Source of the DNA: Cyclostephanos tholiformis
Lineage: Eukaryota > Bacillariophyta > Thalassiosirophyceae > Thalassiosirales > Thalassiosiraceae
Direction: 5' to 3'
Assembly: GCA_036939975.1 (NCBI GenBank)
Contig: JALLPB010000164.1
Coordinates: 1-21,455 of the forward strand
Length of the DNA stretch: 21,455 nt
The notes under the pieces were generated by a model, which was given only the letters and a program-made list of their open reading frames with translations, was not told the DNA's origin and did no database searches. Of the stretch, positions 516 through 19,900 are shown in pieces. The translations under genes and the position numbers were made by a program. Numbering within the stretch: position 1 is the stretch's first letter; each line of letters begins with the position of its first letter.

Positions 516-635
516 ATGACGGCCGCGAATCGACATCAACATCGTCGTCGCCTACGTCGTCGCGTCGAGTCCGCCACCCCCCGTGGCAATTCGCGATCCC
601 ACGGTCGCCGAGGGTGCGCGATAGGCGGCGGCGCG

Positions 636-3198
636 ATGATGCCCCTCCTGCTGCTGGGGGCGGCGGCGTTCGGTCAGGCCTTCCCCCCCGCGTCGACGAT
701 GGCGACGGCAATGCCAACGTCATCGACGACGATCGCCGGGCGACCTCCCCCCTTCCATCCATCACGTTCTGCTCGCCGCCGTCGTCGTCGTCGTGTTCAT
801 CATCGGGGTGTGCCGAACGTGAGGGGTGGCGATGCGGGAACGTCGACGACGACCCCGATGTCGACGACGACCGGCGAAGGTGACGTCGTCGTCGCCCCCC
901 CCCCCCCCCCCGTCACCGTCCGCACTCCCCCCCCCGCTACCGGTCGCGTCGTTGACGATACCGCCGCTTTTGCATTAGGAGGGACAACGCGACATCGATA
1001 TTGGAGGATCGCGAGGGAGCTCGGGAATCACATTTGGCCGTCGTTACCACCGCGACCGTCCTCGAGGGGAGAGGTCGCGTGGAGCGACGATGGCGGGAAC
1101 GGCGCGGCGGCGACATTGGCGGCGGCGGCGCGCGCCTCTGCGATAACTGTCCGGGCTCGCGTCGTGGCATCGATGTGCCTAATGCTCGCCGGGAAGGCAG
1201 TTACTATATCGACGCCCTTCCTCTTCAAGATGCTCGTGGACGTCGTCGGGGATGGTGGGAGCGGAGGAGGCCGACGCGACATCGGGGTTGTACGATCCGC
1301 CCTCCTCCTGTCCGATTCGACGTTAAATCTCCCCGTACTGCTGTTGCTTGCGTACGGCATATGCCGATCGCTATCGTCGCTGCTGCGCGAGTATACCAAC
1401 GTCGTCTTCTCCCACGTGGCCCAATCTGCGATACGCAACTTCGGACGATCGACGTTCGATCACGTGCACACCCTCGATCTGAGGTATCACCTCGATCGCA
1501 ATACCGGCATGCTGAGTCGCGTCCTGGAGCGCGGGAGTCGATCGATATCGTTCGCGTTGAACGCCATGGTATTCAACACCTTACCGACATTGGTAGAGGT
1601 GCTCGTCGTTTCGACGTTGATGATGCGCAGGTTCGGGACGTTGCACGCCATGACGGTGCTTGCGACCATTATCGCTTATTCGGCGTACACTATACGCATC
1701 ACGAGGTGGAGGTCATCCATGAGGAAGGATATGATATCCTCGGAAAATGCCGCCGCGGGACGCGTGTCGGACTCGTTGTTGAATTACGAGACGGTGAAGT
1801 ACTTCAACAACGAGAATCACGAGGGTAGCGTGTACGAGCGCACGTTGGGGGAGTATCAGGGTCTGGCGTTGAGGGCGACGTCGTCGTTATCGGCGTTGAA
1901 CTTCGGTCAGAACGCGATATTCTCCGTCGGACTGACCTTGGTCATGTATCTGACGTTGCGCGACGTAGGCATGGGACGCGCGACCGTAGGCGACCTCGTG
2001 CTCGTGAACGGCCTGCTCTTCCAGCTAAGCGTACCGCTAAATTTCATCGGCTGGGTGTATCAGGAGGTAAGACAGGCGTTCGTGGACATGGAGGCGATGT
2101 TCCAACTTCGCGATACGAGGCCGGAGGTCGTGGACCGTCCGCATGCCGTGGTGTACGATCCGTATTCGAGTGGGACCACTATCGAGTTCGACGGCGTCGT
2201 GTTCGGTTACGAGACTTCATCGCCATCGGCGTCGTCCTCCTCCTCCGCCGAGGGGACGGCGACGACGACCGCGCGGCCGATACTAAGGGAGACGACGTTC
2301 GCGATCCCGCAGGGGAAGACGATCGCGATCGTCGGCAGGTGAGAAATTCGATGGATGCCGCGTTTTTGGCAGTTTTTCCAACTCGCTCGGTTGTTCTTTC
2401 CTTCGTATTGATACGTACCCGACGATTGAATCGTTTTTAATTCCCCCACCCTTTTTTTCATTTCTTCTCCAAATCTCGCTTAATAGCTCCGGTTGCGGAA
2501 AGTCAACGCTCCTTCGACTTCTGTATCGCTTCTACGATCCTCAGGGGGGGTCCGTGCGCATCGGCGGTAGGGACATGCGTGATTACACGACGGAATCGAT
2601 ACGCAGGTCCATCGCCGTCGTGCCGCAGGACGTAGTCCTCTTCAACGACTCCATCGGGTACAACATACACTATGGCAACCTGGCCGCTTCGTGGGAGGAG
2701 GTCATCGAGGCATCGCGCAAGGCGCACCTCCACGACATTATCATGCGCCTCCCGAACGGGTACGACACTGTCGTCGGCGAGCGCGGGCTCAAGATGTCCG
2801 GGGGGGAGAAGCAGCGAGTGTCGATCGCTCGCGCTATTCTGAAACGCGCGCCAATACTCCTGTGCGATGAGCCAACGTCGAGCCTCGACTCGAGGACCGA
2901 ATCGGATATAATGAACAATCTTAAGGAGATAGGGAACGACGAGAATGTCACGTGCGTGATCGTCGCGCACAGGCTGAGCACAATCGTCGATTGTGACCTG
3001 ATCGTGGTCATGGACGGGGGCAGGGTTATTGAACAGGGCAGTCACGACGAGCTGATGAAAGCTGGAGGAAGATATAGCGAACTGGTGGCATTCCAGAGGA
3101 GTCACGGCTCGACGAGCGACGAGGAGGACGTGATAGTCTTGGGTGATGAAGACAAGCTAAAAGAAATGAACGTTGGCGATGAGGCGGTGTTATCATGA
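636..3198 (+). CDS. ATM1/ABCB7-type half ABC transporter, possibly plastid targeted
   Basis: Two exons, 636-2338 and 2487-3198, with a 148-bp GT-AG intron; spliced product 804 aa. An N-terminal six-helix membrane domain is followed by one nucleotide-binding domain. Seen: the ATM1-like stretch RGSRSISFALNAMVFN, then ETVKYFNNE. The NBD has Walker A GSSGCGKST (567-575), Q-loop Q615, signature MSGGEKQR (671-678), Walker B LLCDEPTSSLD with D695 and E696, and H-loop H729. ATM1-family proteins export a glutathione-linked sulfur or Fe-S precursor from mitochondria. Here the leader from Met636 is MMPLLLLGAAAFGQAFPP followed by a Ser/Thr/Arg-rich stretch, which resembles a diatom bipartite plastid signal (cleavage before Phe). 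An in-frame ATG at 516 would add 40 Arg-rich residues and give 844 aa. Family call is firm; compartment is inferred. Confidence 0.88.
895..911 (+). repeat. C17 homopolymer inside coding sequence
   Basis: Seventeen consecutive C bases encode the Ala-Pro5 stretch in the low-complexity part between the leader and the membrane domain of the ABC transporter. A one-base change in length would shift the frame upstream of every functional domain. Confidence 0.9.
2339..2486 (+). other. Intron interrupting the Walker A codon of the ABC transporter
   Basis: The donor is GGCAG|GTGAGA and the acceptor is TTAATAG|CTCC, in phase 2. Splicing rebuilds GSSGCGKST. Reading through the donor instead gives Arg-stop at once (TGA at 2340-2342), so unspliced RNA would end at the P-loop. 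Confidence 0.9.
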
Positions 3199-3672: not shown

Positions 3673-6600
3673 ATGGCGGGAGCGCTTCCCCCCCGTTTCC
3701 AATACTTAAATGATTCACCATTCACCAACACCAAGAGAATGAACGAAGCCAGTAGTCCGGATGGCGATGTCATCAAGTACATCGTCACGGGAAGCGCAGC
3801 GCACGCGAGAGTAGGTCGGCTGTTTCGTGGCCTTCTTGAGGAGCTTAGGAGGGGGGATGGGGAGGAGGAGGAGGAGGGAGGTGTTAAGTCGCCTTTAGAT
3901 ACGGGTCGTCGTCCAGATCCTCACGATGCCACCGTCATTTCGTCACCCCCCCCCCGTCGACGGCGATCGACGGTTTTCTCTTGGATCGACCTCAGTCCGC
4001 ATGTCTCCGCCTCCTCCTCCTCCTCCTGCGCGGCCCGCTGCGGTGGGGTGGGGTACGCCGTCGACGACGCCGACAACGTCGACTACGACGTTGACAATCA
4101 CCGCATCGATTTCCTGTGGGAGAATGCCCGCCGGAGCGAGACCAGGAGCGTGCGCGATTTCGCCAAGTGCTATTCCCACCTGCCGTTCGGATCGATCCTC
4201 GATGACAAGTGGGCGCTGGCGCGACTGATGGGTGGTACCCGATGCAATGGCGCTGCTGCCAATGACGACGAAAGAATACCCTCTGCCCCTGGAAGCGAAT
4301 CAGCGGAATCCAGCGATAAAAATCGCCACTTGGTGACGCTCGAGAGTCACTGCTTTCGCGGGAACGATGGCTTCGTCGTCTTCGCGATGAATGTGGGCCT
4401 ACTCCCGCCTCTTGAATCATCGTCCGTGGTTGGCCCCCCTTCGTCCGCCGACGTTCTTGGCGTGACGACTGCCTCGGCTCATACGTCAATAATGACGATC
4501 GACGGACATGGTCATGGTGGTGGGCAAGGCAGCCGGAACCGCCGAAGCGAGCTCGACAATGATCACTCATCCCAATACCAATTTGAGGATTTGCTACCGA
4601 GGTCGACTTCCATAATGCATCCCTCCCTCGGTCCGCCGCCGATGCCGAGCAACCTATGGGTGATCAAGGACGCCAATAGCAACGGCGCCGGAGGTATATG
4701 GTTCGTCGACGAAAGTAATGTTCGCAATTTTGTCCCTCCCAATAACAGATCAGACCGCCATGTAATCGACGGTGTCCTTGTCGAAGCCGCCGATAATGAC
4801 GCCACGTCGTGGATTGAGGATTCTCCGACGGTGCCACCCGCACGGCCTACGCCGACGCCGCTGCTCAATCCAAATCATAGATACGTGGCTCAGCGGTATG
4901 CATGGCCCCCAACGCTTTACTCTGGTCGAAAATGCCATGTAAGGGCATACGCGCTATTGACGTGCGATGGAAGAGCGTATCTGCATCGGAGGGCATTTTT
5001 GCACGTTGCTAACGAACCATTCGCCTATGACGGTTACGGTTACGTTATTAGTAAAGAAAAAAGGACTGAGACGAAATCTGAGGATGGAAATGCAATTGCA
5101 TTCGATCCGTCGGTGCATATCACCAACTGTTGTGCTAACTCTCACGATGCGAGGAAGTTCACTGGTGAAATTTGTATCGATTTGGAATCGATGCCTTCTC
5201 CTAGACATCGCTGTGTTGACCCTAATGGTATTCATAGTAGTAGTCATCTAGACAACCACGATGATGACGATAAAAAGAACAGCGCAAATGCTTCTTTCAT
5301 TGTCGATGATTCCAAAAGCAAGGATGAACTTTCATCGTCTTGCTCGACATCGTCGTCACCACCTCTGCCGCTTGGTGAATACTTCCCCTCGATATCAGCA
5401 TCCGTCGCGTCGTTTGCGTCATCATTCGGACCCTTCCTGAGAGGAGGCGAGGCGAATTGTGGATTCGAATACTTGGGATTGGACTTTGCGTTGTCGTCGG
5501 TGGAAGAGAAAGGAGAAAGAGGCGAGACGTGTGATGACAGTGATGTCGGCAATTATCACGGCAGGATCAGCTGGAGCGACCCAAACAACGAATATAGAAA
5601 CAAGTCATCATCAACAGAACGAAGATGTTGCCAACGTCGTCCTGTTGCATATCTTCTTGAGGCAAACGCCCCTCCCTCGCAAGATACCGCCTCGGGATTG
5701 AAGCACGCGGAGGCGCTGCACGATGAGGTCATCAGAGACCTCTTGCGAATGTGGGTAGTTCCAAATGTTTTCGCTGGCACCTCACAATGGACAAGGACTG
5801 CTGAAGACGGTGATTTAGTTGCTAGTCCTTGTCATGATCATCTTGATTGCAGTGGTTGGAGATGTGTCTATGCCCCTCCGAAACCCATCAATACCAGTGC
5901 TAGCGGCTTAAGGGATAAGAGTCCCATACTTCCCTCAAAGGCGGCCATTCTAAATCGTATTCGATGGGCACTTTTCGAAAATAGATCAGCGAAAGAATAC
6001 AATATGCTAAGGAAAAAAATAAATGAGGACAAAAGCAGGTTCGATAGTCCGCTGTCGACAGGTGCTTCCACGTTGAAAACATCACATGCTTTACTGTCAG
6101 GTGATGGTGGTTTTAATACCCAAGAAGACGGCAAAAAGATTTGCCCTGCTGAACCATTCTGTGAGTCGTCGTCAAGCGGGAGGAATAAGGTTGTCTCCTT
6201 CTCATTTGGTTATCATTATACAGATGAATTTGTATCATTTGTAAGGTCTCAGTTTCCTTATTACTCCACTGATACTACTGCCAATAATATCGACAATTCC
6301 ACCAGAATAATCAGCAGCAACAGGTGCGAGAATGCAATCTTTTTCGAGTCAGGCGGCGGGGCGCAAGTTCCACAGCTTGTTGCAAACGCTGTCGTGTCAT
6401 CGTTGGGGTATCGTGATCGGAGCGTGATCGGGCGAAACGTCGAAATGGAAGCGCGACTGGCTCTTTCTTCCCTGTTGGCAAACAACATCAAAACATCCAC
6501 TGAATTGTTACCAAGGAACGTCCTTCAACCATCATGCAGAGATGATGATGTTGTTGTCAATGATGATAATAGCCACGTGGTAATTATGGGGTCGAATGCA

Positions 6601-7839
6601 TCGTCCTTACTAGAATTGCTAGCGCGACGAATGTACGCGAGCGGTTTTTTGCGTCAAGGAGACGAAATTGTGATTTCAAGTGAGAATCATCTTGCCAATG
6701 TCACTCCTTGGTTAGATCTCGCAGCACGTACCGTGGGTGGAGACAATGTCAAATGGTGGACTGTTGTTGCCAATACATCTGCTGTCAATGCAACGTCAAA
6801 GGAAAATGATAATCGTATCAAGGACCAGAGTTGCGTCGCAGAGTCATCATCATGTATATTGTCCGATCTCATCACCCATCAGACAAGAATTGTTGCCATT
6901 TCGCACGTTTCTAATGTATTAGGTATAGAACGAGATGTACCAGCTATATGCGATCTAGTGTATCATAAGACAAAAGGTAGGGGACATGTGGTTGTAGATG
7001 GCGTGGCTGCGGCACCACACTTGTTATCATCAAAAGTTATTACAACGACGAAGATTGGAGGACGACGATCGCCGGAGTGGTACATTGTATCATTGCATAA
7101 GTTATTTGGTCCGCATCATGGATTTCTCTTCGGGAAGCGCTCCGTCGTGGAACAGATGAGGAGTCACTTCGTCAACAAAGTAGCAGAATGCAGAGAGGAG
7201 ACAAAGGTGGAACCCGATCCTTCCTTGTTGTCACACGGCATGCTTGCGAAGTTGTGGGAGTCTGGAACCATGAACTACGAGGCGTGCTGTGGTGCCATTG
7301 CATTACTTAGTTATGTTGAGAAAATCGGTATCAAGGCATACGAAAGTTATAACATTATGTGTTCTTGCAATCAAAACACTTCTGAAACATATGGCGTCCC
7401 GACTTCCTCGTATGTGAATATTGCATCATTATGCATCCAGCACGTGGAAGATCGTTTGGCGCGTCGCCTCCTGGAATACTTTCAATCGTGTAAGCCACTT
7501 GTCCGTATTATTCAAGATGTTGGGGATATGAAAGTGACGAATCATCATCAAGGGAATGGTAATAATAATCTTCGAAGGATTCCGCTGGTATGTTTTACGC
7601 ATGCCAAAATTTCATCACAAGCGATTGTGGATCATTGTCGACATCACGGATTGGTGTGCAGAGCATGTAAATTTCTCTCCACAGATAGGCTTTGGAAAGA
7701 GCTGATGATTGGGGACAATGAGAATGTAGTGCGCTTTTCCTTAGCGCATTACAACACGCTGGAAGAAATTGAGGCATCAATTAGAATTTTAGAAATGTTG
7801 GAAGGTTGGCCGGCAGTAAAAACTCGTAACTTAACATAA
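3673..7839 (+). CDS. Fusion protein: TTL-type ATP-grasp ligase + PLP cysteine-desulfurase-like domain
   Basis: An uninterrupted 1388-codon frame. The N-terminal half (about 100-720) matches tubulin-tyrosine-ligase ATP-grasp features. These are VIKDANSNGAGGI (330-342, nucleotide loop), VAQRY (405-409) with GRKCHVRAY (418-426), HITN (482-485), and the metal-ligand segments FEYLGLDF (D604) and LLEANAPP (E663, N665). TTL-family enzymes add amino acids to peptide termini or side chains using ATP. The C-terminal half (about 840-1385) is a class V aminotransferase fold closest to the VC1184/TIGR01976 cysteine-desulfurase-like group. It shows ESGGGAQVPQ (892-901), SENHLANVTPW, VVVDGVAAAPH (D1109), SLHKLFGP with the presumed PLP lysine K1143, and RFSLAHYNTLEEIE near the end. 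The reactive-Cys loop of true SufS is not recognisable. Acidic, Ser-rich low-complexity segments lie between blocks. Substrate and location unknown; no clear signal peptide. Confidence 0.85.
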   Translation: MAGALPPRFQYLNDSPFTNTKRMNEASSPDGDVIKYIVTGSAAHARVGRLFRGLLEELRRGDGEEEEEGGVKSPLDTGRRPDPHDATVISSPPPRRRRSTVFSWIDLSPHVSASSSSSCAARCGGVGYAVDDADNVDYDVDNHRIDFLWENARRSETRSVRDFAKCYSHLPFGSILDDKWALARLMGGTRCNGAAANDDERIPSAPGSESAESSDKNRHLVTLESHCFRGNDGFVVFAMNVGLLPPLESSSVVGPPSSADVLGVTTASAHTSIMTIDGHGHGGGQGSRNRRSELDNDHSSQYQFEDLLPRSTSIMHPSLGPPPMPSNLWVIKDANSNGAGGIWFVDESNVRNFVPPNNRSDRHVIDGVLVEAADNDATSWIEDSPTVPPARPTPTPLLNPNHRYVAQRYAWPPTLYSGRKCHVRAYALLTCDGRAYLHRRAFLHVANEPFAYDGYGYVISKEKRTETKSEDGNAIAFDPSVHITNCCANSHDARKFTGEICIDLESMPSPRHRCVDPNGIHSSSHLDNHDDDDKKNSANASFIVDDSKSKDELSSSCSTSSSPPLPLGEYFPSISASVASFASSFGPFLRGGEANCGFEYLGLDFALSSVEEKGERGETCDDSDVGNYHGRISWSDPNNEYRNKSSSTERRCCQRRPVAYLLEANAPPSQDTASGLKHAEALHDEVIRDLLRMWVVPNVFAGTSQWTRTAEDGDLVASPCHDHLDCSGWRCVYAPPKPINTSASGLRDKSPILPSKAAILNRIRWALFENRSAKEYNMLRKKINEDKSRFDSPLSTGASTLKTSHALLSGDGGFNTQEDGKKICPAEPFCESSSSGRNKVVSFSFGYHYTDEFVSFVRSQFPYYSTDTTANNIDNSTRIISSNRCENAIFFESGGGAQVPQLVANAVVSSLGYRDRSVIGRNVEMEARLALSSLLANNIKTSTELLPRNVLQPSCRDDDVVVNDDNSHVVIMGSNASSLLELLARRMYASGFLRQGDEIVISSENHLANVTPWLDLAARTVGGDNVKWWTVVANTSAVNATSKENDNRIKDQSCVAESSSCILSDLITHQTRIVAISHVSNVLGIERDVPAICDLVYHKTKGRGHVVVDGVAAAPHLLSSKVITTTKIGGRRSPEWYIVSLHKLFGPHHGFLFGKRSVVEQMRSHFVNKVAECREETKVEPDPSLLSHGMLAKLWESGTMNYEACCGAIALLSYVEKIGIKAYESYNIMCSCNQNTSETYGVPTSSYVNIASLCIQHVEDRLARRLLEYFQSCKPLVRIIQDVGDMKVTNHHQGNGNNNLRRIPLVCFTHAKISSQAIVDHCRHHGLVCRACKFLSTDRLWKELMIGDNENVVRFSLAHYNTLEEIEASIRILEMLEGWPAVKTRNLT

Positions 7840-10216: not shown

Positions 10217-11936
10217 ATGGAGCATCATGATAGAAACCGCACTAAGAAATCAATTGACGAGCTGCAGGCGAGGGGAGATCACTTTACTCGCCTATTGATA
10301 AAGGAGAAACAACGAACTGCTACACTGCAAGCGAAACTGGACGAGGTCAATGAAAAAATCGCGAACCTCCGCGATTCGAACAAGCAAAAGGCGACGAGCC
10401 TCCTCAATAACAACATAACAACGCCGAACAATGCATGTGCGATGATAGCCGAAGAAAATCAGAAGAAGATCGTCAAGAAATTAGAGAGCAGGCGAGGTAC
10501 GGCATTGCTCAGGCGAAGCGAAGTAGAGAATGAAAACGATGCAATCAAAGGAAAGATTGACAAGCTTCGATGGAAGGTATACAATGACAGCAAAAGCAAA
10601 GAGTGTATGGAGAAAGAGTTGGTCGATGTGGACGATGACGTGAACAAAATATTGAAGCGGGCAGCAGCCGTTGCTGCTGAAAGAGAGCGCCTCATCGAGA
10701 GGAGGAATCAAGTCCTACAGCAGGACAGTGAAAAGCAAGCCGTCTTCGAAAAAGAGTATAACGAGCTGTGTCTCTATATTGCAGATCAAGCAAAGTCAAT
10801 CGAAGAATCCATTGTCAAGGCTGCAGACAGCGTCACGGCACAATTGAGCATTGTCTGTGGAGGTCAAGGATTAAACTTGACGAGCGTTTCGGATTCTGTC
10901 GACGATATAAAGCATCTCGAGGATAGGGTCGTAGCTCTTGATATTGAATACGAATTAACGCAAAACAATTTGCGGGAGAATCAGTTGAAGATTCATCATT
11001 TCGAGGAAAAGTTCAAAGAGTTGCGCGAGGTTAGTGGGCTTTCATCAACGGAAGACATAATAAACAGCTTCGTTAAGAGCGAAGACGAGTGTTTCTCGGT
11101 TTTCAATTACATCCAAGCTGTGAATCACGAGTGTGATAAGACTATTGAACAGACGGCTCAATTGAAAGAAGATATTAATAAGTACAGACAGAGGCAAATG
11201 GAAGAAGAGAGTGCACGGTCGGCCACCATGAATACCTTCAAAGAAAGTCTGCAGGAGGTAGAACTAGAGAGGAAAAAGTTGTGTGAAACTGCCATCGAAG
11301 GCAGAAGGACGATTGAAATCATTGCGCATAGGGTGACTGCTCTTTACTTCAAGTTGAAATGCAACGAACTGAAAGGGGATGAGCCCGCATCAAAAGATAG
11401 GTCGTTACAGCTCGAAAATGACAGAAAATTGACAACTATCGGAGGTGGAGAGGTGTCACAACGAAACATTCTTAATCCGATGGAGTTGATAGAAACACGA
11501 TCAATCCAAATTGTCGAAGAATTCCAGAATCAAATGGACGCATCAAAGAGGTCGTCGAGAAGATCGAGTTCGATTATGGTGAGTCCTGCATGTCATTTTC
11601 TGTCAAATATAAAGAAGTAATAGCTCGCACAGCTGATTTAGAGATATCATTCCATTGCAGTCGCCAAAAATGTTCGCGCAAGCGATATCGAATGTACAAC
11701 ATAAAAATACGCCAAATACCCCGGACGAAGAAAGTGCTAAATCAGAGGCCGACCAAGAGTCATCAGATGACGACGATGGCGACGATGACGACGATGACGA
11801 CGATGAAGGTTTTGGACGTCCCATGTCGGTTAATGATATTCGACGTGAGGCAGCTGTGAGCATGCGACCATCGACTTCCTCTGACCAGCATACAGCCCTT
11901 GTGATGCAGCCACAGACCGTTCTGGCGAGATTATAG
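10217..11936 (+). CDS. Outer dynein arm docking complex protein, ODA1/CCDC63/CCDC114-like
   Basis: Two exons, 10217-11578 and 11661-11936, with an 82-bp GT-AG intron (ATTATG|GTGAGT; CATTGCAG|TCGCC); spliced product 545 aa. Almost the whole first exon is predicted coiled coil from about residue 8 to 375. The most diagnostic piece is the segment around 279-300, EDIINSFVKSEDECFSVFNY, which matches the conserved ...F(I/V)..E.ENF.LFNY.. block of ODA1/CCDC63/ODAD1 proteins. These long coiled coils anchor outer dynein arms to doublet microtubules of motile flagella. The second exon adds an Asp-rich tract (about 490-503) and a short tail ending in QTVLARL. The acidic tail is unusual compared with my recollection of the family. 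A generic coiled-coil protein is the alternative. Confidence 0.68.
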
Positions 11937-14935: not shown

Positions 14936-15610
14936 CTAGATCTCCTTTTCCATCTCGATGAGAAAGTTCAACGGCGACATCGTGGAGATGGCGTCCAATC
15001 CGCCGTATACCCCCGGCGCCTTGTATCCAAGGCCCTTGTATAAATTGACCGCTGGAAGGTTCTTGCTCATGACGGTAAGCGCGAGTTTCCTCCTCCTCCT
15101 CCCATTCCCGTCATTGCCATCGTTCATCATCCCAACGTAATAGTCCTCCAAGGCCATCATCATCGATCGAGCTATCCCGCGCTTCCTCGCCTCGTCCCTC
15201 ACGTAAACGTTGTTCACGACCCCGGTCTTTGTGTTGAGGTCGGCCGTACCGAGCACCCTCCCCCCGGACCTCGATTCGGCGGCGACGACGCAGACGTACC
15301 CCTCCCTGGTTATCTGATCCGCCTCACAGAAGGATCTGGCGGCGGGAAGATTGACGGACTTTCCCGCATACGCCGAGCGACGGCAGTCGCGTATGAGGGG
15401 TAGGTCGATGGGAACGCTCGCGATGCGCACCGCGACGTCGTCGGGGCCGCGAGTAGTCGACGTCGATGTCGACGTCGTTGCCGAGACGGCATCGCGCGTC
15501 ACCGACAGTGAACTGGACGGTTCGGGGAGAACGAAAAGGGAGACGAGGGCCAGCAGTAGAGCGAACAGGTGCGCCAGCGGTAGTATATGCCTTGATCGTC
15601 GCGGCAACAT
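14936..15610 (-). CDS. GNAT-family N-acetyltransferase with N-terminal signal-like segment
   Basis: 224 aa from ATG at 15610, single exon. Residues about 9-28 (ILPLAHLFALLLALVSLFVL) form a hydrophobic stretch after a basic start, then a Ser/Thr-rich linker to about 55. This pattern is that of a secretory or organelle leader. The GNAT fold occupies about 58-224. Motif A, for acetyl-CoA, is VYVRDEARKRGIARSM (135-150), with the R-x-x-G-x-A loop at 142-147. The C-terminal strand-helix motif is NLPAVNLYKGLGY. GNAT enzymes transfer acetyl from acetyl-CoA to amines. The overall look is that of the RimI-like or plastid GNAT type, but substrate cannot be read from sequence. Met1 follows GC-rich DNA and no better in-frame start lies upstream. 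If the leader is a plastid presequence it lacks a clear Phe at the cleavage site. Confidence 0.82.
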   Translation of the reverse strand: MLPRRSRHILPLAHLFALLLALVSLFVLPEPSSSLSVTRDAVSATTSTSTSTTRGPDDVAVRIASVPIDLPLIRDCRRSAYAGKSVNLPAARSFCEADQITREGYVCVVAAESRSGGRVLGTADLNTKTGVVNNVYVRDEARKRGIARSMMMALEDYYVGMMNDGNDGNGRRRRKLALTVMSKNLPAVNLYKGLGYKAPGVYGGLDAISTMSPLNFLIEMEKEI

Positions 15611-16976: not shown

Positions 16977-19900
16977 TTATGGATCCCTTGCTGCCAACTC
17001 CACCACACTGCACTGTAACAAAACTTTGTCTACTATACGCTCAAGATCTGCATTCTCTCTTTTTAGCGCATCCAAACCAGATCTGTGGCACTTCGCAACT
17101 AATGAATCCCTCCAAGCAACAACTGTAAATGTTCTTGGGCGCCTTAATACGAAATCCACGAATCCAAAAACAGTTCCGACGGAAAGTACACGAGATATTT
17201 GGCCGCTCTCTAACACATTGCGACGTTTTAGGTGTTTCACACCAGCACCCGATCGAATCGAACTATCGCCCACTAACTTATCATCCAGTAGAATCACCGC
17301 GGAACCACTGAGCAAAACATAAAAACCGTCTGCTTCTGCTCCAGACGAAAAAACAGTTTCTCCAGCCGTGTAAAGATCCTCTGAGTGAAATGTTTTACCC
17401 CTTTTCTCATATTCAATTAGAGAGGCAGCATCATGCGCTTCCAAGCCAAGAAAGTTAGTGAACGCAGTTGAGAGAGATATTCCTGTTGTGTCTAGTGATG
17501 CATTAAGAACCAATGACACAGTGCCAGCTGGTGCTTCAGCCACTAGCGATTTTTCAGAGAACTGTAATGCTGGAAAAAAAGATCGGGCGATGATCAATAT
17601 CAGGCACCTTAAAATAATGCATAAAGTGAAAATATAACCACACACCTTCATCTAAGTCGTTGAACAGTATGATCTTGTCATTCGATTCCACGGAACCAAT
17701 TGCCAATCCATCGGCATCAGCATGCTGAGCAGTGCCATGAGTTTGCATCATCCAATCAATTCTACTGTTGGCACCGGCAGCGCAAACGATAATCTTCCTC
17801 CTCGCACATATCCTAGCAAGTTGTAAGAAGCATCCTCTTGTTGCAGACGCATCAACGTTGGAGACTGAAGAAAGATCCAAGACTAAAAACCTAGGAGGCG
17901 CATGTGGTGCAATACGATTACTTCTTCTCTCAGGTTGCTCTGCTCTCAATCGTTCTTTTCTCCGTTCATCCAACCCTCTGCTACCCGGCGAAACAGATGC
18001 AGGAGAGAGGGATAGTGGAATACGAACACTATTGATGCGTGATTTAGGGAGAGGACTATTGACAATGCCTATCTCCGCTTTTTCTTCAACAGAGATGTTT
18101 ATTCCAATTTCCTCGAGAATGGTGCTAAGAATCTGCATGGACGATCCAAAGAAAACCGAACCCCTGCATTCAAGAGTAATAATCTTTGGAAACTGAGCAC
18201 TGTACACGTGATTTTCGATATAGGTTCTCTCGAGAGGGCTCCACAGTGCAAGAGAGCGCCTAGCCACTCGAACGACGTTGGAAACGCTTGCAGTTGTCCA
18301 TACGAAGTCGAATACAGCAACCCCAATCCCAAGAGCAATTCCTCCTGGAAATTCAAGTTAGTCCAAAATTGAAGGAAATGCAAGTTAGTCCAAATTTAAG
18401 GATGTTAGAACAAAATAACGAGAATGACTGATATCAACTTGCCATCAATCCCTATAAATTGTATTGCGAAGAAAGTTGCTAATAGTACGACATACTCAGA
18501 AAAGAGTAACTGAAAAAAAACACCACGTGTGAGTATTTCGGACTGCAACTCCTATCGAACATTTCCTCACTCATGACGAATGCACTCGCCTTGTGTCTCA
18601 CGTCCACAATCCATTCATAGAGCAGGTCAAACCCGATAAATATCAATGTACTGCCGAGGAAAAAGAGCTGGAGGCGGAAACAGCATAAAAAAAGATTAGT
18701 ATGATCGTTCTCGCGATTTCATCTACAGTTTAATATCTGTCTTACAGGTGTCACCTCGAGGAAATTGACTGAAGAGACAATTACGGCAAAGAAAGTGATG
18801 GCAACCTGCAAAGAGGTGCAGTTGGTTGGTTCTGTTCATGTTTGATATAGTATCAACAAGAATTATAAGCAAGTATGAAAACTCACCAAAGATCCAACCC
18901 ATCTCGAATGGCAGCCTGTCCTATAGGTGAAAATGGTCTGAGAAAAAATGTACGATCCCGTGAATCCTCCGAACAGCCCTGATATAACTGATGAAAAGTA
19001 TGCGGTGAGAAAAATTAAGGAGAGGTTTTCTGGATCAACCTCTTTGCGATGCCCTTACAGTTGGAGATGCCCACCGTCGTCAACTCGCTGTTTGTGTCCA
19101 AGGCTTCCCCCATGTCCATTGATATAGCCGCAACATCCAAACAAGAGGAAAATGAAACCACAAATACCATTCCTGGCCGGTGAAAAAAAATGGCATATGG
19201 ATGAGGAGGGATCAATCGATCAACATGACAACGTGCGTTTTTTCTTCCGCTCGAGCATGCTTACCGGCCCAAGTTGAAATGAGCTGTTTCGCCATACCCC
19301 AACGAACTAATCCAAAATCGACCAGATGAAATAGATCGCCAACGGGGATGGGAGGGGAAGTTTGTCCGACCCAACCTCCCTCTCTCGCATCGTCAATGCT
19401 AAGGCCAGATAGGAGAAGGACGACGTAAAATGTCGTCGGGATCACCATCATCGAGAAGGGGAGCACGGCCTCATTATCGCACTTGCGCGCGACGAGGGTT
19501 AGTATAACACCGGCGACGATGCCAGGGAATGCAAGCAAGAGATGGTGAGCATCACACAATGCCATCCAATCGGTCGGCTTCATTATTATCGTGCCTATGC
19601 AAAGGGCGACTCCCGCCTCGACGCAGAAATAGCCAATGAAAGCCAAGTACCCTTTTGGAGGGGAATATCACAAGGACAAAAAAAAGACGACGTATAGATG
19701 TAAGCCGAGACCACCCTCAATGAAATGCCGAGAGAAAAACAATGAAGTCCTCACCGCCAACGACCGGGAGGGGTAGGTACGCCACGGCATCGGCGAATCG
19801 AAACTTTCCCGCCAATATCAGTACCATCCCGAGTAGAGCCGTCGACAATCCCAATAATACGACTGTCGTCGACACAATCTCGGCGACGAGGTCGTCATCG

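Follow-up and report, generated by a model that had tools for sequence, protein, structure and literature searches.

A conserved fusion of a TTL-type ATP-grasp ligase and a class-V PLP enzyme in diatoms, with a possible role in amino-acid conjugation

Gene and domain content

The window analyzed in this study is a stretch of 21,455 nucleotides of Cyclostephanos tholiformis DNA (contig JALLPB010000164.1, here C164), taken from an assembly of 25 Mb in 1566 contigs. It contains a gene for a protein in which a ligase half of the tubulin tyrosine ligase (TTL) type is followed by a class-V enzyme half dependent on pyridoxal phosphate (PLP); its features are collected in Table 1. The single uninterrupted frame holding both halves, claimed in a preliminary description of this DNA, was confirmed, and Pfam matched both TTL (PF03133, E 1.2e-9), inside the range of residues 100–720 where that description expected it, and Aminotran_5 (PF00266, E 3.4e-22, residues 962–1227), each above its curated cut-off. 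At E up to 0.1, Pfam found only these two domains in the window protein and no SurE domain. The assignment to PF00266/TIGR01976 held for the former family only: TIGR01976 was the top NCBIfam match (E 1.5e-39), but its 136.5 bits are below the cut-off of 352.35. The PLP half is a relative of TIGR01976 (VC1184) and not a member by the NCBIfam model. Half-profiles were made from four other fusions; against them the halves of the window protein scored 486 and 428 bits, whereas the highest score among 400 shuffled-half controls was 4.2 bits. Since several low-complexity inserts of the window protein are poorly shared among the aligned fusions, in-frame introns may lie within them.

Table 1. Coordinates of the fusion gene, its parts and residues, and the other features of the window
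Feature	Position	Strand	Remarks
Whole fusion gene	3673..7839	+	Single unbroken frame, ATG 3673 to stop 7839, 1388 aa
TTL-type ATP-grasp half, residues 33–739	3769..5889	+	Complete TTL fold (predicted) with long low-complexity inserts
Pfam TTL core, residues 327–491	4651..5145	+	Pfam match
K332, presumed ATP-grasp lysine	4666..4668	+	K in 117/117 fusions
H444, at TTL R222 position	5002..5004	+	H in 117/117; TTL residue table in PMC10335831
D604, TTL D318 equivalent	5482..5484	+	D in 117/117
E663, N665, TTL E331 and N333 equivalents	5659..5667	+	Each 117/117
Conserved hinge between halves, motif P-S-K-A-x3-N-x3-W-x3-E (residues 754–769)	5890..6000	+	Helix leading towards PLP half
Class-V PLP half, residues 850–1379	6220..7809	+	FGM3/UstD/TIGR01976-like; fold seen in model of homologue P0027
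R914-x-R916, shortened loop	6412..6420	+	Mark of fusion clade; both R in 117/117
H1006, PLP-ring histidine	6688..6690	+	117/117 fusions; 69/69 non-fused relatives
D1109, presumed PLP pyridine-N aspartate	6997..6999	+	117/117
K1143, Schiff-base lysine in S-x-H-K-x-F-G-P-H	7099..7101	+	117/117
L1335, at SufS catalytic-cysteine position	7675..7677	+	L in 115/116 with a residue there; aligns with Cys of SufS-like rows
R1354, presumed substrate carboxylate arginine	7732..7734	+	116/116 with a residue there; 69/69 non-fused relatives
ABC transporter transmembrane region	516–2342	+	PF00664, E 4.2e-28
Frame of 524 aa	8423–9997	-	No Pfam or NCBIfam match at E up to 0.1
ODAD1-type outer-dynein-arm docking coiled coil	10217–11620	+	PF21773, E 3e-17
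GNAT acetyltransferase	14936–15610	-	PF00583, E 8.6e-9
STAS domain	17554–18267	-	PF01740, E 1.8e-5

Distribution of the fusion

A database search with the whole window protein, in which 7992 candidates were scored, returned 169 proteins with E values no higher than 1e-3, of which 120 were listed. Both Pfam domains were found in 117 of the 120, the exceptions being P0003 and P0004, which had no TTL call, and P0042, which had no PLP call; the fusion is present in related genomes and is not an assembly join. Named homologues with both domains include Thalassiosira, Mediolabrus, Conticribra, Stephanocyclus, Cyclotella, Epithemia and the pennate genera Seminavis, Cylindrotheca and Nitzschia, while the named Stephanodiscus entry (P0004) received the PLP call only. 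Further searches yielded models from Skeletonema and Pseudo-nitzschia in which the PLP half is merely begun, and a bolidophyte protein, from Triparma strigata, in which both Pfam domains are present. As judged from these sequences, the fusion occurs in many diatoms and in at least one bolidophyte. No description of it was recognized in the open-access literature searched, the coverage of which is incomplete.

Two entries bear MMETSP names, which we take to denote transcriptome data, and their labels 'Aulac' and 'Coret' are read here as Aulacoseira and Corethron. The first, P0161, runs in one frame from the TTL half into the opening portion of the PLP half, stopping ahead of the lysine; the second, P0207, encodes in one frame the complete PLP half preceded by the last portion of the TTL half. 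Because each spans the junction, messages seem to cross from the TTL to the PLP half in two diatoms. This speaks against the pair of separate transcripts that the preliminary description had considered, in species other than that of the window.

A set of 307 proteins was assembled, many of them metagenome sequences and not all of separate species. Both half-profiles matched 178 of them, and 136 of these passed a length filter. The TTL half lies upstream of the PLP half in all 136 when the best-scoring stretch of each half is taken. A simpler boundary rule gave this order in 127, the nine exceptions being due to additional stretches that score roughly 3 bits at most; in P0208, one of the nine, only the end of the TTL half is present. 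Residue counts refer to 117 aligned fusions, with identities to the window protein of 33–67%: the window protein itself plus the 116 homologues that remained of the listed 120 once P0003, P0004, P0042 and P0121 had been dropped as partial. Two divergent TTL–PLP fusions, P0244 and P0252, carry Gln in place of H422 and also in place of H444, and are perhaps from another ochrophyte group.

Proteins with one half were also encountered. The TTL half alone was seen in 37 listed proteins; 12 of them run at the tail into the beginning of the PLP half, and the remaining 25 mostly end inside the TTL half, with P0042, P0135, P0150, P0187 and P0196 containing most or all of the TTL half and no PLP start. 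PLP-only proteins with the fusion-type motif number about two dozen (25 pattern matches, among them P0043, a fusion missed by the TTL pattern; upstream DNA was not looked at).

The ligase half

The top sequence matches of the TTL half were the Pby1-type yeast proteins 6y3z and 6y3p (E 7.7e-10 and 6.5e-10), the latter taken as the Kluyveromyces counterpart, followed by 5vlq, presumably TTLL3, and TTLL6; TTL itself was absent from the 10 matches. The TTL half, folded alone, was predicted to adopt the complete TTL fold including the N-terminal domain, and TTL and TTLL6 fill its best structural matches, with 17–20% identity in the structural alignments; Pby1 is not among the 50 structural matches listed. 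K332 is assigned its role by analogy with TTL K150. A table in PMC10335831 lists six critical residues common to TTL and TTLL5. Five are kept in the fusion (R424, D604, E663, N665 and P668), and the sixth, R222, is His in every aligned fusion, such that the full tubulin-ligase residue set is not present. The fusion thus differs from TTL and TTLL6 in this invariant His, in its low structural-alignment identity and in the fused PLP domain.

In the printed alignments the Pby1-type proteins share a K-x-H-x-R motif with the fusion and, like it, lack Arg at the R222 position. Pby1 likewise joins its TTL-like domain to an enzyme-like domain (PMC8984151); the partner there is SurE, and in the fusion it is the PLP enzyme. 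Moreover, Pby1 is a partner of mRNA decapping, and the segment P-P-S-Q-D-T-A-T-G-L that follows E-x-N in the fusion is missing from the yeast alignments.

The PLP half

The set of residues expected of a class-V PLP enzyme (Schiff-base Lys, Asp, ring His and carboxylate Arg) is complete in the fusion. We take H1006 and R1354 as the equivalents of SufS H123 and R379, the latter with a role in binding the substrate carboxylate, and D1109 as the aspartate contacting the pyridine nitrogen. All of the key residues named in the preliminary description (D604, E663, N665, D1109 and K1143) were correctly placed, and each is identical in the 117 fusions. It was also right that the SufS cysteine is absent, Leu occupying its position; Cys stands there in 17 of 69 non-fused relatives, which are the SufS-like ones. 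Motifs of the wide TIGR01976/UstD/FGM3 group are present, as evidenced by H1148 in G-P-H (115/117), H1359 in H-Y-N (116/116) and L1335.

The loop bearing the R-x-R motif measures 20 residues in 22 of 23 rows of the fusion clade (17 in the other) versus 28–29 in 69 of 69 others, the loop of the fusions being eight residues shorter than that of their non-fused relatives; Corethron P0207 has no R-x-R. In a tree constructed without FGM3 and UstD, the fusion PLP halves formed a single clade (SH-like approximate likelihood ratio test, SH-aLRT, 100). A loop deletion and an R-x-R motif in one clade would be as expected if the PLP domain had taken on a substrate of its own.

Among solved relatives, a profile of the PLP half ranked FGM3 first (2.3e-61) and UstD second (1.9e-51), then SufS (1e-40), and the whole-fusion profile again placed FGM3 and UstD on top. 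FGM3 is described as a retro-aldol enzyme (PMC10367076) and UstD as a decarboxylative aldolase (PMC11976203). The PLP half appears related to both, and aldolase-type chemistry is suggested for it by that sequence relation. In the printed alignments FGM3 and UstD, like the fusion, have no Cys at the SufS position and have G-P-H and H-Y-N-T in common with it, whereas neither shows the short R-x-R loop; the fusion has His (as does SufS), not Tyr, before the Schiff-base Lys, besides the attached ligase. Where the fusions have this His, Tyr is found in 52 of 69 non-fused rows and His, as in SufS, in the other 17. Compared with SufS, the fusion has Leu for the catalytic Cys, G-P-H for G-P-T, H-Y-N for F-Y-N and D-G-V-A for D-G-A-Q. 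Bacterial TIGR01976 proteins of the VC1184 type are the nearest non-fused relatives by search (about 25–36% identity) and share the family motifs; they are free-standing and have the longer loop without R-x-R.

Bacterial loci with near PLP relatives were surveyed for the best 80 of 581 confirmed, mostly from Pseudomonas. By eye, the commonest neighbors were a solute-binding protein (34/80), a transporter ATPase (30), an RpiR-type regulator (27), a hydantoinase-like protein (25), a permease (20) and an allantoinase-like protein (19), a setting which suggests amino-acid breakdown. The TTL-half profile matched none of 891 open reading frames around these PLP genes at E up to 10, and no bacterial operon joining a TTL ligase to a PLP enzyme was thus seen in the 80 loci. 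Viral carriage was considered as well: the same profile matched 60 stretches on viral contigs, none of which was confirmed.

The hinge

The segment between the halves is among the well-kept parts of the protein: P754, S755 and E769 are identical in 116 of the 117 fusions, N761 in 115, and K756, A757 and W765 in 114. Its helix appeared in both structure models. Neither half appears to be decaying, since the catalytic residues are invariant across fusions that share 33–67% identity with the window protein.

Related genes in the source genome

Searches of the source genome, in which only the best candidates were scored, returned at the protein level the fusion gene and one other match. The latter, on contig C165, is SufS-like (PF00266, E 2.7e-134) and retains the G-H-H-C cysteine loop. 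A TTLL6-like gene is located on contig C296; by eye, its translation has Lys at the TTL R222 position and Thr at the D200 position. With separate SufS-like and TTLL6-like genes present, the fusion replaces neither. A single Tubulin_C match was found, beta-like by eye, from which the alpha-tubulin tail is not readable.

Discussion

The sequences show both folds and the catalytic residues, the invariable order of the domains, the conservation of the hinge and the grouping of the PLP halves in one clade. We regard the fusion, which joins enzymes of known kinds, as real, widespread and intact-looking, and a make-and-attach function as plausible. Catalysis, substrates, coupling and compartment are inferred from the sequences. 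We tentatively propose a bifunctional amino-acid-conjugating enzyme whose PLP half would remodel a free amino acid and whose ligase half would attach the product. The PLP domain, having no catalytic cysteine, would hold a free alpha-amino acid as an external aldimine by means of K1143, D1109, H1006, R1354 and N1081 and remodel its side chain, most likely by making or breaking a C–C bond or by other beta or gamma chemistry. TTL-type enzymes let a free amino acid react through its amine with an activated carboxylate of the acceptor; the ATP-grasp half would likewise activate a carboxylate on the accepting protein or peptide, forming an acyl phosphate, and couple the amine of the product to it. 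Should one molecule pass through both halves, ligation would have to come second, because an amine locked in an amide can no longer form the PLP aldimine. The enzyme is probably cytosolic, as several members (P0027, P0043 and P0100) have no more than a few residues ahead of the TTL domain. The more specific version, in which a non-standard amino acid is made from a common one and put on a cytosolic protein as an undescribed mark in diatoms and their sister algae, is more doubtful. The general idea of the preliminary description, that one protein both alters and attaches an amino acid, is kept here, with the coupling conditional as it was there.

Several observations weigh against this proposal. 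Full-length modeling gave a predicted template modeling score (pTM) of only 0.61, too low a value for a claim that the active sites face each other; the relative placement of the domains is thus unsure and channeling between them is unsupported. The replacement of TTL R222 by His means that the usual donor and acceptor handling of TTL should not be assumed for the fusion. The tie of the PLP half to the aldolases is moderate, because the single window sequence, as opposed to the profile, ranks FGM3 first but then S. aureus SufS (7.6e-14) ahead of UstD (1.3e-12), and because Rv3778c is the top row of the structural search; FGM3 is not among the structural matches listed for the full model, which are filled by the PLP half. 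Tyr225, the proposed general base of FGM3 (PMC10367076), apparently corresponds to F1145, given an uncertain numbering offset, and this residue is Phe in 114 of 117 fusions and Tyr in three. One-half proteins exist, and although many look like fragments, some free-standing halves may be genuine. Finally, the bacterial loci offered no ligase beside the PLP gene.

A rather unlikely alternative is that the product is a free small molecule (a dipeptide, amide or osmolyte, for instance) and that no protein is modified: the PLP domain would supply an amino acid, and the ATP-grasp domain would couple it to another small acid. Other ATP-grasp ligases produce small peptides, and the Pby1-type proteins, not the tubulin ligases, are the top sequence matches of the TTL half. 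The bacterial PLP relatives often lie, by eye, beside genes resembling amino-acid transporters and hydantoinases, which points to free amino acids, and FGM3 and UstD serve peptide natural products (PMC10367076 and PMC11976203). The fusion nevertheless keeps the whole TTL fold, N-terminal domain included, for which a metabolite ligase has no obvious need; in TTL this domain helps to bind the protein.

The PLP domain might instead be independent of the ligase or control it, by destroying, limiting or sensing its amino acid, with the halves joined for co-expression only. The pTM value is compatible with independent placement, the bacterial PLP relatives stand alone and one-half proteins occur in the lists. 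We regard this as unlikely: the hinge is highly conserved, and the TTL-only proteins look like pieces of the same gene, since 12 of the 37 run into the PLP start and many others break inside the TTL half, apart from about five with most of it.

Modification of tubulin or another cytoskeletal protein, in which the PLP domain would supply an unusual amino acid for tubulin tails, was raised by the preliminary description and is judged here quite improbable. TTL and TTLL6 are the best structural matches and five of six critical TTL residues are kept. On the other hand, R222 is invariably His, sequence ranking favors Pby1-type proteins with TTL missing from the matches, and the genome carries a TTLL6-like gene elsewhere. 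Pennate diatoms, which have no flagella, retain the fusion gene in Seminavis, Cylindrotheca and Nitzschia. The Seminavis genome paper (PMC7335047) reports a TTL/polyglutamylase gene with a pennate signature, which may or may not be the fusion gene.

The database names would have a cysteine desulfurase or selenocysteine lyase fused to a ligase, which is very hard to reconcile with Leu at the catalytic-cysteine position and with the separate SufS-like gene that keeps its cysteine loop. An artifact of assembly or gene calling that joined two genes, as the fragmented assembly and the low-complexity inserts between blocks might suggest, can practically be dismissed in view of 136 length-filtered fusions from many separate assemblies and of the transcript-named P0161 and P0207, which cover the junction in one frame.

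With the desulfurase and selenocysteine lyase names contradicted by sequence, what remains is a conserved two-enzyme fusion in major ocean primary producers. The proposed coupling of the halves, if it holds, points to an amino-acid-derived tag or metabolite new to diatoms, and the chemistry of Pby1-type TTL domains, as well as that of the UstD/FGM3-like PLP family, can be approached experimentally through the fusion.

Other features of the window

Five further frames are listed at the end of Table 1. The ATP-binding cassette (ABC) transporter region comprises the transmembrane part, and an exon boundary probably follows it, as the ATPase part lies outside the frame. The ODAD1-type coiled coil fits a centric diatom with flagellated gametes.

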